Assembly (NCBI GenBank): GCA_015655445.1
Contig: JAATFA010000148.1
Location: forward strand, 1-40,627
Source: Actinomycetales bacterium
GTDB taxonomy: Bacteria; Actinomycetota; Actinomycetes; Actinomycetales; Microbacteriaceae
Direction: 5' to 3'
DNA: 40,627 nucleotides
This document shows, piece after piece, positions 27,416 to 36,838 of this stretch. Both the position numbers and the translations under genes were made by a program. Numbering within the stretch: the first letter of the stretch is position 1; every line of letters starts with the position of its first letter. Under the pieces are notes generated by a model. The model ran no database searches and was not told where the DNA came from. It was given only the letters and a program-made list of their open reading frames with translations.

Positions 27416-28882
27416 ATGGACGAGTCCGCACTGCTGCAGAGCGTGCCCGACCGCCTGCTCATCGGGGGCGAGTGGGTCGAGGCGTCCTCGGGCGCGAGGT
27501 TCGAGGTGCACGATCCGGCGACGGGCGCGGTGCTGCGCTCCGTCGCGGACGCGACGCCCGAGGACGGCGTGCGCGCGCTCGACGCCGCCGTCGCGGCGCA
27601 GCCCGCGTGGGCGTCGACCGCGCCGCGCGCGCGTGCGGACATCCTGCGCCGCACGTGGCAGCTCGTGCAGGACCATGCGGACGACCTCGCGCTCCTCATG
27701 ACCCTCGAGATGGGCAAGCCGCTCGCCGAGGCGCGCGGCGAGGTCGCCTACGGCAGCGAGTTCCTGCGCTGGTTCGGCGAGGAGGCCGTGCGCATCGCCG
27801 GGCGGTACGCCGTCGCCCCGGAGGGCACGGGACGCATGATCGTGAGCAAGCATCCGGTCGGCCCGTGCTACTTCATCACGCCGTGGAACTTCCCGCTCGC
27901 GATGGCCACGCGCAAGATCGGGCCCGCGCTCGCCGCGGGCTGCACGGTCGTGCTCAAGCCCGCCGAGCTCACGCCGCTCACGACGCTCTACCTCGCGACG
28001 CTCTTCGAGCAGGCGGGGCTGCCGGCGGGTGTCGTCAACATCGTGACCACGACCGCGAGCGGACCCGTCTCGGAGCCGATCATCGCCGACCCGCGCTTGC
28101 GCAAGCTGAGCTTCACGGGGTCGACGGGCGTCGGCAAGCGGCTCATCGCCCAGAGCGCGCAGAACGTGCTGCGCACCTCGATGGAGCTCGGCGGCAACGC
28201 GCCGTTCCTCGTCTTCGAGGACGCCGACCTGGACACGGCCGTGGACGCGGCGATGCTCGCGAAGTTCCGCAACATCGGGGAGGCGTGCACGGCCGCCAAC
28301 CGCTTCCTCGTGCACGCGAGCGTCGCCGACGAGTTCACGCGCCGGATCACCGAGCGCGTGCGTGGCCTGCGCATCGGGCGCGGGACCGAGGAGGGGGTCT
28401 CGATCGGTCCGCTCATCAACGACGCCGCCGTCGCGAAGGCCGAGCGGCTCGTGAGCGACGCCGTCGAGCGCGGGGCGCAGCTCGTCCTCGGCGGCGAGCG
28501 CGTCGACCGCCCAGGGACCTTCTTCGCCCCGACCGTCGTCGCGGGGGTGCGCGCAGGCAGCGAGATCCTGCGCGAGGAGATCTTCGGCCCCGTCGTCTCG
28601 ATCGTGCCGTTCGAGGACGAGGACGAGGCCGTGCGTCTCGCGAACGCGACCGAGTACGGCCTCGTGAGCTACGTCTTCACGCGCGACCTCGCGCGCGGGC
28701 AGCGGATGATCGAGCGGCTCGAGACGGGCATGATGGGGCTCAACGTGGGCGTCGTGTCGAACGCGGCCGCGCCCTTCGGCGGCGTCAAGCAGAGCGGGAT
28801 CGGGCGCGAGGGCGGGATCGAGGGCATCGAGGAGTACCTCGAGACCAAGTACACGCTCACGCGCGACCCCTTCGCGCGCTGA
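27416..28882 (+). CDS. gabD: NAD(P)-dependent succinate-semialdehyde dehydrogenase-like aldehyde dehydrogenase
   Basis: [107 protein letters not shown]. Confidence 0.9.
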
Positions 28883-28902
28883 CGCCGCCGCCCCCTTCGG
28901 CG

Positions 28903-28945
28903 TTTGTGACACGCGCGCGGGGATTCCCGCCGCGCGTGTCACAAA
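28903..28945. repeat. Long perfect inverted repeat/hairpin between convergent genes (possible bidirectional terminator or dispersed palindrome)
   Basis: TTTGTGACACGCGCG (28903-28917) and CGCGCGTGTCACAAA (28931-28945) are perfect 15-bp arms; CGGG-GATT-CCCG extends the stem after one bulged C. Confidence 0.85.
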
Positions 28946-28994
28946 TGCGCTGGGAGGGGAGGGGAGGAGACGGGGGAGCGAGCGCGCGGGGCGA

Positions 28995-30839
28995 TCACAC
29001 GAGCAACTGGTGCCTGGCGAGCTCGCGGTAGAGGGGCGTCGAGCGCACGAGCTCGGAGTGCGTGCCGACCCCGACGACACGGCCCTGGTCGAGCACCACG
29101 ATCGTGTCCGAGTCGACGACCGTGGAGAGACGGTGGGCGACGACGATGAGCGTGCGGTCCTCGGCGACGGCGTCGATCGCCTCCCGCAGCAGCTGCTCGT
29201 TGAGGCCGTCGAGCGAGGACGTCGACTCGTCGAGCAGGAGGACGGGCGGCGCGGCGAGCAGCGTGCGCGCGATCGCGAGCCGCTGGCGCTCGCCGCCGGA
29301 GAGCATGATCCCGTTCTCGCCGACGGGCGCGGAGAGCCCGAGCTCGCTCCGATCGAGGACGTCCCCCAGGTTGACGGCGCGCAGCACCTCCACGCACTCC
29401 TCGTCGGTCGCGTCGGCCTTCACGAGGCGGAGGTTGTCGGCGAGCGTTCCCGCGAGCACCGGCGCGTCCTGCTCGACGTAGCCGATCTGGGCGCGCAGCG
29501 CCGTGCGGTCGAGCGCGCGGATGTCGACGCCGCCGAGCCGGATGACGCCCTCGGTCGGGTCGTAGAACCGCTCGATGAGCGCGAGGACGGTGCTCTTGCC
29601 GGCCCCGGACGGGCCGACGAGCGCCGTGCGCGTGCCGCGTGCCGCCGCGAAGCTCACGTCGTGGAGCACGGTGCGCTCGGACTCTGCGTCGACGCCGAGC
29701 TCGGCGGCGAGGAGCTTCTCGCTCTCGGTCGCGAACGCGCGGGCTGGATAGCGGAAGGTCACGTGCTCGAAGGAGATCGCCGCGTCCGTCGCGACGGGCC
29801 GCTCCGTGCGCACGGTCGCGTCGGCGTCGGTCTCGCCGGGCAGGGCCGTGATCTCCTCGATGCGCCCGAGCGCGCCGAGGGCCTGGCTCACCGAGGTGAC
29901 CGCGCCGAATGCCTGGCCGAGCGGCATGATCATGAGGAACAGGAAGAGGATGAAGGCGACGAGGTCCGCGATCGTGATCGCGCCGCTCGCGACGCGGAAG
30001 CCGCCGACGCCGAGCACGACGAGGAACGAGGCCTGCATCGCGATGCCCGCGACGGGCACGACGAGCGCGGAGGCGCGCGCGACGCGCACGCCGGCGTTCC
30101 AGGCGCCGCGCGCGTGGCCCTCGATCGAGGCGATCTCCCGGTCGCCCGCGTTCGACGCACGCACGGTGCGGATGGCCCCGATCGCGCGCTCGACGCTCGC
30201 GGCGAGGTCGCCGACCTTCTGCTGCTGATCGCGGCTCGCGCGCCGGATGCGCGTGGAGAGCGCGCCGACGACGAGCACGGACGCGGCGATCACGAGCACC
30301 GTGAACGCGAGGAGCACGGGGTCGATGACGAGCATCCCGATGAGCGCCCCGAGGAACACGAAGGCGCCGCCGATCGCGTCGACGAGCCCTTGCGTGAGCA
30401 CGGCGTAGAGCATCGTCGTGTCCGATCCGACGCGCGAGACGAGGTCGCCCGTGCGACGCGTGTCGAACTCCGCGATGGGCAGGCGCAGGATGCGGCGCAC
30501 GAGCCGCTGGCGCGCGGAGAGCACGACCGAGGTGCCCGTGCGCTGCAGGAGGTAGTGCTGCACGCCGTTGAGCGCGCCGTACACGACGACGAGCGCGACG
30601 ATCGCCCACACGATGCCCCCCAGCGGTCGGCCGTGCTGCACGAGGCCGATCACCTGGCTCACGAGCGCGGGCTGGGCGAGGGACGCGGCCGCCCCGGCGA
30701 GGCTCAGCACGACGACGAGGATGAGGGTGCGCCTGTGCTCGAGGAGGTAGGGCAGGAGGTCGGAGAACCGCGCGCGCGGTCCGTCGTCCTTCGCGGGACG
30801 CCGGAACGGGCTGCGGCGGGCGGGCGTGGAGGTGCTCAT
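28995..30839 (-). CDS. ABC transporter, fused permease and ATP-binding domain (multidrug exporter type)
   Basis: TALVGPSGAGKSTVLALIERFYDPTEG Walker A, MLSGGERQRLAIARTLLAAPPVLLLDESTSSLD; N-terminal TM domain. Confidence 0.95.
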   Translation of the reverse strand: MSTSTPARRSPFRRPAKDDGPRARFSDLLPYLLEHRRTLILVVVLSLAGAAASLAQPALVSQVIGLVQHGRPLGGIVWAIVALVVVYGALNGVQHYLLQRTGTSVVLSARQRLVRRILRLPIAEFDTRRTGDLVSRVGSDTTMLYAVLTQGLVDAIGGAFVFLGALIGMLVIDPVLLAFTVLVIAASVLVVGALSTRIRRASRDQQQKVGDLAASVERAIGAIRTVRASNAGDREIASIEGHARGAWNAGVRVARASALVVPVAGIAMQASFLVVLGVGGFRVASGAITIADLVAFILFLFLMIMPLGQAFGAVTSVSQALGALGRIEEITALPGETDADATVRTERPVATDAAISFEHVTFRYPARAFATESEKLLAAELGVDAESERTVLHDVSFAAARGTRTALVGPSGAGKSTVLALIERFYDPTEGVIRLGGVDIRALDRTALRAQIGYVEQDAPVLAGTLADNLRLVKADATDEECVEVLRAVNLGDVLDRSELGLSAPVGENGIMLSGGERQRLAIARTLLAAPPVLLLDESTSSLDGLNEQLLREAIDAVAEDRTLIVVAHRLSTVVDSDTIVVLDQGRVVGVGTHSELVRSTPLYRELARHQLLV

Positions 30840-30861
30840 GGGTCCTTTCCGGGCTTCGTCT

Positions 30862-31077
30862 CTAGCGTCGGCCGTACTTCTTGTGAACCGCCTGACGGCT
30901 CACGCCGAGGCACAGCGCGATGAGCTGCCAGGAGCACCCCGCGTTGCGCGCGCGGCGCACCGTGACGGCCTCGTACCGGTCGAGCTCGCGGCGGAGCTCG
31001 GCGATGGCCCTGAGCGCGGAGACGGGGTCCTCGGAGCCGGCGCCGGAGGCGAGGGTGGAGATGGCGTCGATCGACAT
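30862..31077 (-). CDS. Small helix-turn-helix regulator
   Basis: MSIDAISTLASGAGSEDPVSALRAIAELRRELDRYEAVTVRRARNAGCSWQLIALCLGVSRQAVHKKYGRR with C-terminal HTH; start inferred from the promoter geometry. Confidence 0.8.
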   Translation of the reverse strand: MSIDAISTLASGAGSEDPVSALRAIAELRRELDRYEAVTVRRARNAGCSWQLIALCLGVSRQAVHKKYGRR

Positions 31078-31080
31078 GGT

Positions 31081-31124
31081 GTCAACCATAGTTGACGTCT
31101 CGCGGAACGTCAACTTGGGTTGAC
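31081..31124 (-). promoter_or_regulatory. Sigma70-like promoter overlapped by two GTCAAC-N4-GTTGAC operators
   Basis: GTCAACCATAGTTGAC (31081-31096) and GTCAACTTGGGTTGAC (31109-31124). On the minus strand: TTGACG, 17 nt, TATGGT, then 7 nt to ATG 31077. Confidence 0.8.
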
Positions 31125-31186
31125 GGGGGTGAGGGGAAGCACTCATGGCGGCGGACGGCGCCCGTCGGGGCGGGCCGCCCCTCGCG

Positions 31187-31612
31187 TCAGACGACGCCCT
31201 TCGTGAGCGCGAAGCAGCAGTAGGGCATGGTCTCTCGGGTCTGCACGACCGCGTATGCGCGCGCCGCGCGCTCGTAGAACGAGAAGCGGGGGAGCGCCTC
31301 GAACTCGAGCTCGCGCCCGTCGTGCCGGCGCGCCGTCGCGAGCACCTGCTCCTGCCGCTCGTTGAGGGCCGAGGGGTCGTCCTGTGGGCCCATGCGCGCA
31401 AGCGGCCGATCGACGAACGTGTCGAGCGGGAACACCCCGAGGATCGCGTCGACGACGCGAGCGGTGTCCTCGACGTCGACGCGCACGATCGGGAGTCCCG
31501 TCGAGAACGCGGGGAAGTTGCGATCGGCGACGACGAGCTCGTCGCCGTGTCCCATCTCGTCGAGGATCTTGAGCAGCGCGCCGCTCAGCAGCGGGTCGAT
31601 TCCCTTGAGCAC
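31187..31612 (-). CDS. RbsD/FucU family sugar mutarotase
   Basis: MLKGIDPLLSGALLKILDEMGHGDELVVADRNFPAFS ... FYERAARAYAVVQTRETMPYCCFALTKGVV. Confidence 0.92.
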   Translation of the reverse strand: MLKGIDPLLSGALLKILDEMGHGDELVVADRNFPAFSTGLPIVRVDVEDTARVVDAILGVFPLDTFVDRPLARMGPQDDPSALNERQEQVLATARRHDGRELEFEALPRFSFYERAARAYAVVQTRETMPYCCFALTKGVV

Positions 31613-31725
31613 CCCTCCAGCCTAGGCGAGCGACCGAGCGGCGACCCGTCCCCGGGGAGCTGCGCGGTCGCGCGCCGCCCCTGCTCACGGCCGTCGCGTC
31701 CGGCCCTCCGGTGTCGCGCCGCTCG

Positions 31726-33195: not shown

Positions 33196-33675
33196 TCAGC
33201 GCTCGCCGTCGCGCAGGGCGCGCAGGGCGAGCGCGGTCGCGAGCGCGGCCTCCGCGGCCTCCGCGCCCTTGTCCTCGCGCGAGCCGGGCAGGCCCGCGCG
33301 GTCGATCGCCTGCTCCTCGGTGTCGACGGTGAGCACGCCGAAGCCCACGGGCTTGCCGGTGTCGAGCGCGACGCGCGTGAGCCCGTCGGTAGCCGCGGAG
33401 GACACGTACTCGAAGTGCGGCGTGCCCCCGCGGATGACGACCCCGAGCGCGACGACGGCGTCCGCTCCGCCCTCGAGCGCGGCCTTGCACACGACGGGCA
33501 GCTCGAAGCTCCCCGGCACGCGCACCTCGCGCACGCTCGCGCCCGCGCGGTCGAGCCGCCGTCGGGCCCCCTCGAGCAGGCCCGTCATGATGCGCTCGTG
33601 CCACTGCGCGGCGACGACGACGACGGTGAGGCCGCGGCCGTCCACCTCGAGCTCGGGCGACCCCTCGCCGCTCAC
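33196..33675 (-). CDS. ribH: 6,7-dimethyl-8-ribityllumazine synthase
   Basis: [79 protein letters not shown]. Confidence 0.96.
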
Positions 33676-34967
33676 TGGGCGCTCTCCTCGAGGCGGGCGA
33701 GCAGCCGCTCGCTCGAGATGTCGGAGGGGAGCCGGTGGCCCATCCGGTCGCGCTTCGTCGCGAGGTACTGCTCGTTCTCCGCGCCGACGCCCACGACGAG
33801 CGGCACGAGCTCCTCGACCTCGATGCCGTGCGTCGCGAGCTGCCGCGCCTTCTCGGGGTTGTTGCTGAGGAGCCGGATGCGCGAGATGCCGAGGTCCTCG
33901 AGGATGCCCGCCGCGGCGCCGTAGTCACGGGCGTCGGCGGGCAGCCCGAGCGCGAGGTTCGCGTCGAGCGTGTCGAGTCCCTGCTCCTGCAGGCGGTACG
34001 CGCGCAGCTTGTTGATGAGGCCGATGCCGCGGCCCTCGTGACCGCGCAGATAGACGACCACGCCGCCCTCCTTCTGGATCCGGTCGAGCGAGGCCTGCAG
34101 CTGCCGGCCGCACTCGCACTTGAGCGAGCCGAACACCTCGCCCGTGAGGCACTCCGAGTGCACGCGCACGAGCGCGCCGTCCGCGGGCTGCCCGCTCACG
34201 ACGGCGAGGTGGTCGGCGCCCGTCGTGCGATCGCGGTAGGCCCGCATGCGCAGCGTGCCGTGCGTCGTGGGCACGTTCGTCTCGACCTCGAAGCGCACGC
34301 TCGAGCGCGGGGCGGACGTGCGGACCGCCTCGTCACCGTTCGCGTCCTCCCGCGCCGTCGCGCCCGCCTCGAGGTGCTCGACGAGCTCCTCGATCGTGAT
34401 GACGGGCACGTTCTCGCGCTCGCCGAAGGCGAGCAGGGCGGGCAGGCGCATCATCTCGCCGTCGTCGCCGACGATCTCGCAGATCGCCGCGACGGGCGTG
34501 AGGCCGGCGAGCAGGAGCAGGTCCACGGCGGCCTCGGTGTGCCCGTTGCGCTCGCGCACGCCGCCGTCCACGGCGCGCAGGGGCAGGATGTGGCCGGGCC
34601 GGTTGAGGCTCGCGGGGGTCGAGGCCGGGTCGGCGAGCACGCGCAGCGTGTGAGCGCGGTCGGCGGCGCTGATGCCCGTGCTGAGGCGGTCGGCGGCGTC
34701 GACCGAGACCGTGTAGTTGGTTCCGCGCGGGTCGGCGTTCGCGGCGACCATGACGGGGAGCTCGAGCCGGTCCGCGATCGCGTTCGTCATGGGTGCGCAG
34801 ATGAACCCGGAGGAGTTGCGGACCGTCCACGCGATCCACTCCTGCGTCGCGGACTGGGCGGCGAGGACGACGTCGCCCTCGTTCTCGCGGCTCTCGTCGT
34901 CCACGACGATGATGGGCCGTCCGGCGCGCAGCGCGTCGAGGGCGGTGGGGATGTCGGCGAGAGTCAT
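33672..34967 (-). CDS. ribBA: Bifunctional 3,4-dihydroxy-2-butanone-4-phosphate synthase / GTP cyclohydrolase II
   Basis: [30 protein letters not shown] (RibB); [39 protein letters not shown] (RibA). Confidence 0.96.
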
Positions 34968-35620
34968 GCCGGCCTCCTCTCGGCCGCGGCGGCAGGGGCA
35001 TCCTCGGCGACCGAGTGCGCGCCCGCGAGCGCGCCGAGGCGCAGCAGGCGCTCGACGTGCCGGGCGAGCACGTCGGTCTCGACGTTCACGCGATCGCCCG
35101 GCGCCCGGAGGCCGAGCGTCGTCACGGCGAGCGTCTCGGGGATGAGCGACACCTCGAGCCAGTCGTCCCCGACGTCCGAGACGGTGAGGGAGACGCCGTC
35201 GAGGGCGATCGATCCCTTGCGGGCGACGAGCGGCGCGAGCCCGGGATCGAGGGAGAGCCGCACGACGCGCCACGCGCTGCCCTCCGCGAGCGAGAGCACG
35301 GTCGCGGTGCCGTCGACGTGTCCCTGCACGATGTGGCCGCCGAGGCGCGCGCCGAGGGCGGCCGCGCGCTCGAGGTTGACGCGCCTGCCGGGCGTCGCGG
35401 AGTCGAGCGTGCTGAGCGCGAGCGTCTCGGCCATGACGTCCGCGGTGAACCAGTCGTGCCCCTGGTCGACGACCGTGAGGCACACGCCGTCGACCGCGAT
35501 CGAGGCTCCGTGCACGGCGTCGGAGACCGCGAGCGGCCCGCGCACGGTGAGCCGGCCGGCGCCCGCCGACTCCTCCCAGGCGAGGATCTCGCCGAGCTCT
35601 TCGATGATTCCGGTGAACAC
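34964..35620 (-). CDS. ribE: Riboflavin synthase alpha chain
   Basis: MFTGIIEELGEI, GASIAVDGVCLTVV, LGGHIVQGHVDGT, ALDGVSLTVSDV. Confidence 0.95.
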   Translation of the reverse strand: MFTGIIEELGEILAWEESAGAGRLTVRGPLAVSDAVHGASIAVDGVCLTVVDQGHDWFTADVMAETLALSTLDSATPGRRVNLERAAALGARLGGHIVQGHVDGTATVLSLAEGSAWRVVRLSLDPGLAPLVARKGSIALDGVSLTVSDVGDDWLEVSLIPETLAVTTLGLRAPGDRVNVETDVLARHVERLLRLGALAGAHSVAEDAPAAAAERRPA

Positions 35621-36642
35621 TAGGGTGTCCTCCCTTCCGCTCGCGCCGATCGCGCGAGAAGCAGCACGTCATCCCCGAGGCGCTCGACCGCGTCGAGGCG
35701 CAGTCGGCGCGCGTCGGCGAGGGTGGGGATCCCGATGTCGCCGATCGCGAGCCGGTCGCCGCCGACGAGGGTCGGGGCGAGGTAGACCGCATAGTCGTCG
35801 ACGAGGTCCGCCGCGACGAGCGCGGTCGCGAGCGTCGGGCCGCCCTCGACGTACACGCGGCGCACGCCGCGGTCGTAGAGGTCGCGCAGGATCGCGGCGA
35901 GGTCGCGGCTGCGCGTCTCGACGAGGCCCGCGGGGTGGCGTCGCACGCGCGCGTCAGCGGGCACGGGGCGCTCGCCGACGACGACGGGCATGGGCTGCAC
36001 GGGCATGAGCTCGCCCGCGTCGCCGCGGGCGGTGAGCTCGGGGTCGTCGGCGAGCACGGTCCCCGTGCCGACGAGGATCGCGTCGGCGCGTGCACGCTGC
36101 TCATGCACGCGCTGCCGCGCGGCGGTGCCCGTGATCCACCGGCTCGTGCCGTCGGCGGCGGCGACGCGGCCGTCGAGCGTCGCGGCCCACTTGAGCAGGA
36201 CGAACGGACGGCCGAGACGCTCCGCGGTGAGCCATGGCCGCAGGAACTCGCCGACCTCCTCCGCGAGCACGCCGCCGGTGACCTCGACGCCCGCAGCGCG
36301 CAGGCGCGCGGCGCCGCCCCCCGAGAGCCGTCCGGGATCCTCGACGGCGTACACGACGCGGCGCACGCCCGCGGCGATGAGCGCCTCGGTGCACGGGCCG
36401 GTGCGGCCGTAGTGGTTGCACGGCTCGAGCGTCACGACGGCGGTGAGGCCGCGGGCGTCGGGGACGCGGGAGAGGGCATCGACCTCGGCGTGCGGCGTTC
36501 CGGCGCCGCGGTGCCAGCCCTCCGCGACGATCGTGCCCGTCGCGTCGAGGAGCACGCATCCGACCTGGGGGTTGACGCCCGTGGCGGGGCCGCGCTCGGC
36601 GAGCGCGAGCGCATGGCGCATCGCCGTCCGCTCGTCCGTCAT
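35620..36642 (-). CDS. ribD: Bifunctional diaminohydroxyphosphoribosylaminopyrimidine deaminase / 5-amino-6-(5-phosphoribosylamino)uracil reductase
   Basis: HALALAERGPATGVNPQVGCVLLD, GTPHAEVDAL, VTLEPCNHYGRTGPCTEALI, FVLLKWAATLDGRVAAADGTSRWITG. Confidence 0.96.
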   Translation of the reverse strand: MTDERTAMRHALALAERGPATGVNPQVGCVLLDATGTIVAEGWHRGAGTPHAEVDALSRVPDARGLTAVVTLEPCNHYGRTGPCTEALIAAGVRRVVYAVEDPGRLSGGGAARLRAAGVEVTGGVLAEEVGEFLRPWLTAERLGRPFVLLKWAATLDGRVAAADGTSRWITGTAARQRVHEQRARADAILVGTGTVLADDPELTARGDAGELMPVQPMPVVVGERPVPADARVRRHPAGLVETRSRDLAAILRDLYDRGVRRVYVEGGPTLATALVAADLVDDYAVYLAPTLVGGDRLAIGDIGIPTLADARRLRLDAVERLGDDVLLLARSARAEGRTP

Positions 36643-36721
36643 GCCTGCCCCGTCCTGCTCGCTCGACGCGGGCTCCGGGGTGGTCGACGACCGGCGGCGC
36701 GGCATCGCCGCACCACGCGCG

Positions 36722-36838
36722 CTGCCTCCCATCCGGACTTTCACCGTCGGTCCCGGAATTCCACCGGATCAACCCCGAAGGGCTCGCGGACTGTCACCGC
36801 CGGTTCGGACTTGCACCGACCCCGGAGCACGCTGTGCT
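36722..36838 (-). promoter_or_regulatory. FMN riboswitch (RFN element)
   Basis: Reverse complement contains GTGCTCCGGGGTCGGTGCAAGTCCGAACCGGCGGTGACAGTCCGCGAGCCC...GGTTGATCCGGTGGAATTCCGGGACCGACGGTGAAAGTCCGGATGGGAGGCAG, the RFN consensus. Confidence 0.97.

Follow-up and report, generated by a model that had tools for sequence, protein, structure and literature searches.

Two perfect inverted repeats stand in front of a small gene for a helix-turn-helix (HTH) protein with an ABC exporter gene behind it, and the question raised by this locus is which protein reads the repeats and what its binding does to the promoter lying among them. The window, that is, the whole stretch of DNA analysed here, comprises 40,627 nucleotides from an Actinomycetales bacterium of the Microbacteriaceae. 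Our analysis favours, with a probability of about 0.8, the reading that a dimeric 71-aa HTH repressor of the ClpC2 N-terminal domain (NTD) family would occupy both sites and silence a predicted leaderless promoter, together with its own gene and the exporter. The features concerned are the following.

31109..31124, minus strand: distal operator, GTCAACCCAAGTTGAC in the minus-strand reading (exact match; its right half gives the -35).
31108..31113, minus strand: -35 hexamer TTGACG (promoter scan).
31081..31096, minus strand: proximal operator, GTCAACTATGGTTGAC in the minus-strand reading (exact match; the -10 lies inside).
31085..31090, minus strand: -10 hexamer TATGGT (promoter scan; the -35 is 17 nt away and the ATG 7 nt).
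30862..31077, minus strand: HTH protein of 71 aa, a predicted autorepressor and stand-alone form within the ClpC2-NTD/RelI HTH family (profile homology, AlphaFold2 model).
30843..30850, minus strand: GGAAAGGA, likely the ribosome-binding sequence for the exporter gene (inferred from sequence).
28995..30839, minus strand: MsbA-like ABC exporter half-transporter of 614 aa, ABC_membrane plus ABC_tran (domain matches).

The first-pass annotation had described two perfect GTCAAC-N4-GTTGAC sites interlocked with a promoter, and its coordinates are reproduced exactly: the pair lies at 31081-31096 (GTCAACCATAGTTGAC on the plus strand) and 31109-31124 (GTCAACTTGGGTTGAC), 28 bp from start to start. On the minus strand, TTGACG (31113-31108), taken from the right half of the distal site, is followed after 17 nt by TATGGT (31090-31085) within the proximal site, and after another 7 nt by the ATG at 31077, a distance compatible with the predicted leaderless transcript. 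A blind sigma-70 promoter scan of 28800-31700 agrees with these positions and has the operator-interlocked promoter as its sole result, with a shuffle mean of 0.0. No exact operator site occurs in 300 dinucleotide shuffles of the window, and the pair is far above chance expectation. The genome search proposed for the operator returns two exact copies in the organism's own assembly (85.9% complete), both of them in the window. A wider regulon was considered as well and dropped, with just these two exact sites in the own assembly and with the stray sites of the family being single.

The gene behind these sites (31077-30862) encodes 71 aa plus a TAG stop. Its AlphaFold2 model, with a mean pLDDT of 92, has helices at residues 3-13, 18-45, 50-57 and 61-68, that is, a four-helix domain of about 70 residues with the HTH at its end, as in the family described below; the protein carries no Clp_N domain and is not a ClpC2 proper, and by the model a sensor domain is absent, with just the four helices present. 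Searches of Pfam, NCBIfam and PADLOC give no family for it, and Foldseek gives no significant match to the model, the weak matches being DNA-binding HTH proteins (DeoR, Fis, DosR and TraR). In the PDB, the profile of the window HTH family finds RelI (9SDC, E=4.6e-6), and hhalign of this family against ClpC2 N-terminal domains gives a probability of 97.4% (E=1.1e-11). For the ClpC2 set, the n5 operator pattern was searched in 198 class-level genomes, which yielded genes for fused HTH-Clp_N proteins starting 1-2 nt behind n5 sites, most often twin sites, and the profile of these N-terminal domains matches PDB 8ADA (Rv2667) with E=1.6e-36; phmmer of a single Clp_N-linked HTH against the PDB missed ClpC2, which was found by the ClpC2 NTD profile alone. 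The salt bridge D46-R57 of the ClpC2 dimer would correspond, on sequence only, to D33 (D/E in 25/26) and the invariant R44. These profile matches place the window HTH protein, as a stand-alone form, in one family with RelI and the ClpC2 N-terminal domain of mycobacteria.

The family assignment itself is already known, since the RelI paper already describes, from HHpred, a resemblance of RelI to ClpC2 in an HTH region as well as relatives fused to DUF3887 (PMC13284704); the link to the operator is new by the literature searched. RelI (Rv2664, PDB 9SDC), a family member and likewise a short HTH protein, acts as antitoxin to the toxin RelS in a recently described system (RelS-RelI), whereas no toxin gene adjoins the window HTH gene; the authors report no inverted repeats upstream of RelI (PMC13284704), unlike the twin operators found here. 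As separate observations on paralogues, an HTH-DUF3887 gene in the own genome (locus L006, 1129-1746, on contig C32) has GTCAAG-N5-GTTGAC 2 nt ahead of its ATG, and HTH-PASTA paralogues (L120-L123, L127) have, a few nt ahead of the start, a single GTCAGG-N4-CCTGAC palindrome centred on TA, and a recognition helix of the form [ST]RQSAWERWRDL, with half-site and helix both changed. The HTH-PASTA paralogue is apparently another predicted leaderless autoregulated gene.

The closest known system is ClpC2 of mycobacteria. Taylor et al. (2023) found CGTCAAC-n5-GTTGACG 1-2 nt ahead of the clpC2 ORF and, in many species, again upstream of this, with the operators overlapping -35 and -10 and suggesting leaderless transcripts; ClpC2 binds both sites and represses itself until cyclomarin A binds, and the autorepression was proven by EMSA, reporter and knockout (PMC10030653). 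The window shares with ClpC2 (Rv2667) the homologous HTH domain, GTCAAC/GTTGAC twin operators over -35 and -10, a 27-29 bp period, a start few nt after the near site with predicted leaderless spacing and, as predicted here, autoregulation. It differs in that the HTH of ClpC2 is fused to a Clp_N-like domain that binds cyclomarin A, while the window has the HTH alone with an ABC exporter next to it, and in an operator spacer of 4 bp instead of 5 bp. From this comparison the window circuit appears to be a ClpC2-type autorepressor in a variant form whose payload is an exporter. An HTH dimer would bind each GTCAAC-N4-GTTGAC site, the bound sites would cover -35 and -10 and occlude RNA polymerase, and occlusion would repress the HTH gene and the exporter behind it, presumably on the same transcript. 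Against this repressor model stand the spacer difference, the lack of a significant Foldseek match, and the fact that DNA binding by ClpC2 is published mainly for the C-terminal domain (CTD), which the window HTH protein lacks.

The gene order described beforehand, with the 71-aa HTH gene first and the exporter directly behind, is borne out by the coordinates: the exporter ATG (30839) lies 22 bp beyond the end of the HTH CDS with GGAAAGGA immediately ahead. The exporter matches the general ABC exporter domains PF00664 and PF00005 and has the same ABC_membrane plus ABC_tran half-transporter architecture as the MsbA-related exporters (TIGR02204, TIGR02203), from which it differs in scoring under the curated cut-offs (391.7 bits against 780.4 for TIGR02204, MsbA_rel). 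Besides the exporter, the HTH gene is neighboured by an RbsD/FucU-family gene; farther away, 33196-36744 on the minus strand holds a probable riboflavin synthesis cluster (ribD, ribE, ribBA and ribH-like ORFs, by eye). Literature searches found no paper on this HTH-exporter operon. The first-pass annotation had called it a candidate autorepressed efflux circuit. Of this description, autorepression is supported by conservation of the layout in 103 of 108 loci, by the operator adjoining HTH-family genes and by the homology of the protein to ClpC2; "efflux" is the least supported word, the next gene being an MsbA-like exporter whose orthologues often occur in the family where the regulator is missing. 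In fact, exporter orthologues are present in 133 of the 147 genomes of the family (E<=1e-125) and HTH homologues in 65.

This distribution also bears on a serious alternative, to which we give a sizeable though minority weight: a purely homeostatic circuit, in which the HTH protein would keep its own level and that of a housekeeping exporter constant with no inducer, neither ligand nor stress, to relieve it. It agrees with the wide occurrence of the exporter and with a four-helix protein that has no sensor domain. However, cyclomarin A and heat both induce the related ClpC2 system (PMC10030653), the partners found elsewhere, Clp_N and beta-lactamase-family proteins, hint at drug-related roles, and a releasing signal could possibly come in trans from a partner protein.

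Whether or not relieved by a signal, autorepression by the HTH protein requires that this protein, and not another regulator, reads the sites. The 147 family genomes contain 64 exact sites, of which 53, spread over 35 genomes, immediately precede a gene of the HTH family; the other 11 have no listed HTH gene behind them and occur singly. The exporter orthologue is immediately downstream of the HTH gene in 37 of 46 checked loci of the family, and 20 exporter orthologues from genomes with no detected HTH match have no site at up to one mismatch, and just two isolated matches at two mismatches. The operators therefore go with the regulator: they belong to the HTH gene and not to the partner gene. 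At one of these exporter loci (L184) the orthologue stands behind an apparent 3' part of the HTH gene with operators absent, possibly a decay of the module.

The partners vary across Actinomycetes. An ABC exporter is the partner in 45 of 80 scan loci. In all 19 Streptomyces scan loci the stand-alone HTH gene with the same operators is followed by a gene for a short Clp_N protein, and the same order is seen in four more class-level loci; two Microbacteriaceae loci (L192, L196) have a Clp_N-like partner by resemblance. Such split ClpC2-like operons with twin n4 operators were noted at L093, L129, L132, L138 and L139 and at 18 other Streptomyces loci. They share with the window the stand-alone HTH, the n4 twin operators and the leaderless spacing, and differ in the partner, a Clp_N protein instead of an exporter; the HTH and short Clp_N pair is possibly a drug sponge. 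In L131, L193 and L197 the HTH gene with its operator or operators precedes a PF00144 beta-lactamase-family serine hydrolase, in Prauserella the partner is an alpha/beta hydrolase, and in Arthrobacter the HTH gene has no evident partner and adjoins glutamine synthetase. The tree of HTH proteins (72 columns) groups the Clp_N-linked ones with a support of 92, and is too poorly resolved to tell a single from a multiple origin of the exporter-linked forms. Because the HTH, and not Clp_N, is common to all these loci, the HTH is likely the reader of the operator. That another regulator reads the sites, with the HTH protein a bystander, is improbable: binding by the HTH is a prediction and the published DNA contacts of ClpC2 lie in its Clp_N-like domain, but the sites accompany the HTH gene in lineages with differing partners and are missing from exporter genes that lack it, and the search of the own genome (assembly 85.9% complete) detected no fused ClpC2, its Clp_N matches being confined to two reading frames, one of 874 aa and one of 153 aa at a contig end.

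The promoter layout is conserved together with the operators. Our scan of the collection finds HTH homologues across Actinomycetes, including Streptomyces, Arthrobacter, Prauserella and Microbacterium, and twin sites are present in 103 of 108 distinct homologous loci, with a spacing of 28 bp in 55, 29 bp in 23 and 27 bp in 17 (95 in total). The half-sites are nearly invariant. In the distal site of the relatives the four central bases are free, while in the proximal site T and A are favoured at central positions 1 and 2 (71/103 and 72/103), as expected if this site also holds a -10 of the form TANNGT, and in the conserved layout the -10 is located within this near site. The first in-frame start follows the -10 by 6-9 nt, a leaderless spacing, in 85 of the 103 loci. 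In Microbacterium, Labedella, one Herbiconiux, Klugiella and others the operators sit farther upstream, mostly ahead of a purine-rich ribosome-binding sequence, which suggests that leaderless translation is common and not obligatory among these loci. Some Microbacterium loci (L067-L071, L076, L080) have, in the leader between operators and start, a GC-rich inverted repeat around GGATGCCGCG...CGCGGCATCC.

The same layout speaks to the direction of control. Two sites so close to a promoter could in principle serve an activator, yet we consider activation by the HTH protein quite improbable, with both sites overlapping a core promoter that has good hexamers and the optimal 17-nt spacer, and with ClpC2, of the same layout, being a repressor (PMC10030653). 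Translation from the upstream ATG at 31146, named in the first-pass annotation as the case against its prediction, would put the palindromes within coding sequence and make the promoter coincidental, and is highly improbable: this ATG is in frame and stop-free up to 31077, but many relatives have in-frame stops at most 48 nt upstream of the start equivalent to 31077, so that 31077 is the conserved start, the protein similarity begins at its equivalent, and the operators and promoter geometry are conserved while the codons are not.

If the HTH reads the operator, the DNA reader of ClpC2 itself comes into question. Taylor et al. assigned DNA binding mainly to the C-terminal, Clp_N-like domain, a CTD double mutant of which binds DNA more weakly (PMC10030653). 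The structures are PDB 8ADA for the NTD and 8AD9 for the CTD with cyclomarin A. The NTD chain in the PDB has 72 residues and ends at ...GV72, just ahead of the putative recognition helix [TS]KQAAQKRF (residues 73-81), and the CTD construct starts at residue 94 (PMC10030653), so this helix is outside both; this may explain the search for DNA contacts in the CTD. The in vivo derepression, 4.6-fold for R57A in the NTD and 2.0-fold for the CTD double mutant (PMC10030653), is compatible with the NTD HTH as reader and is not a proof of it. We tentatively suggest, as an idea more doubtful than the repressor model, that the module is a swappable self-repressing cassette whose payload may be a Clp_N sponge, a beta-lactamase-family hydrolase or an exporter, that ClpC2 may read DNA by its N-terminal HTH (about residues 73-81) and not by its CTD, and that the exporter version may be a resistance operon against Clp-directed or similar natural products.

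On the whole, an exporter operon conserved in many Microbacteriaceae is now tied to an experimentally proven type of drug-sensing repressor. Mycobacteria use the ClpC2 circuit to sense a Clp-targeting antibiotic, and in the window an exporter takes the place of the drug-binding domain. The operator together with the HTH provides a search rule for more such operons. In addition, the recurrence of the operator with HTH proteins lacking Clp_N bears on which part of ClpC2 reads DNA, and this in turn bears on how bacteria sense Clp-targeting antibiotics.
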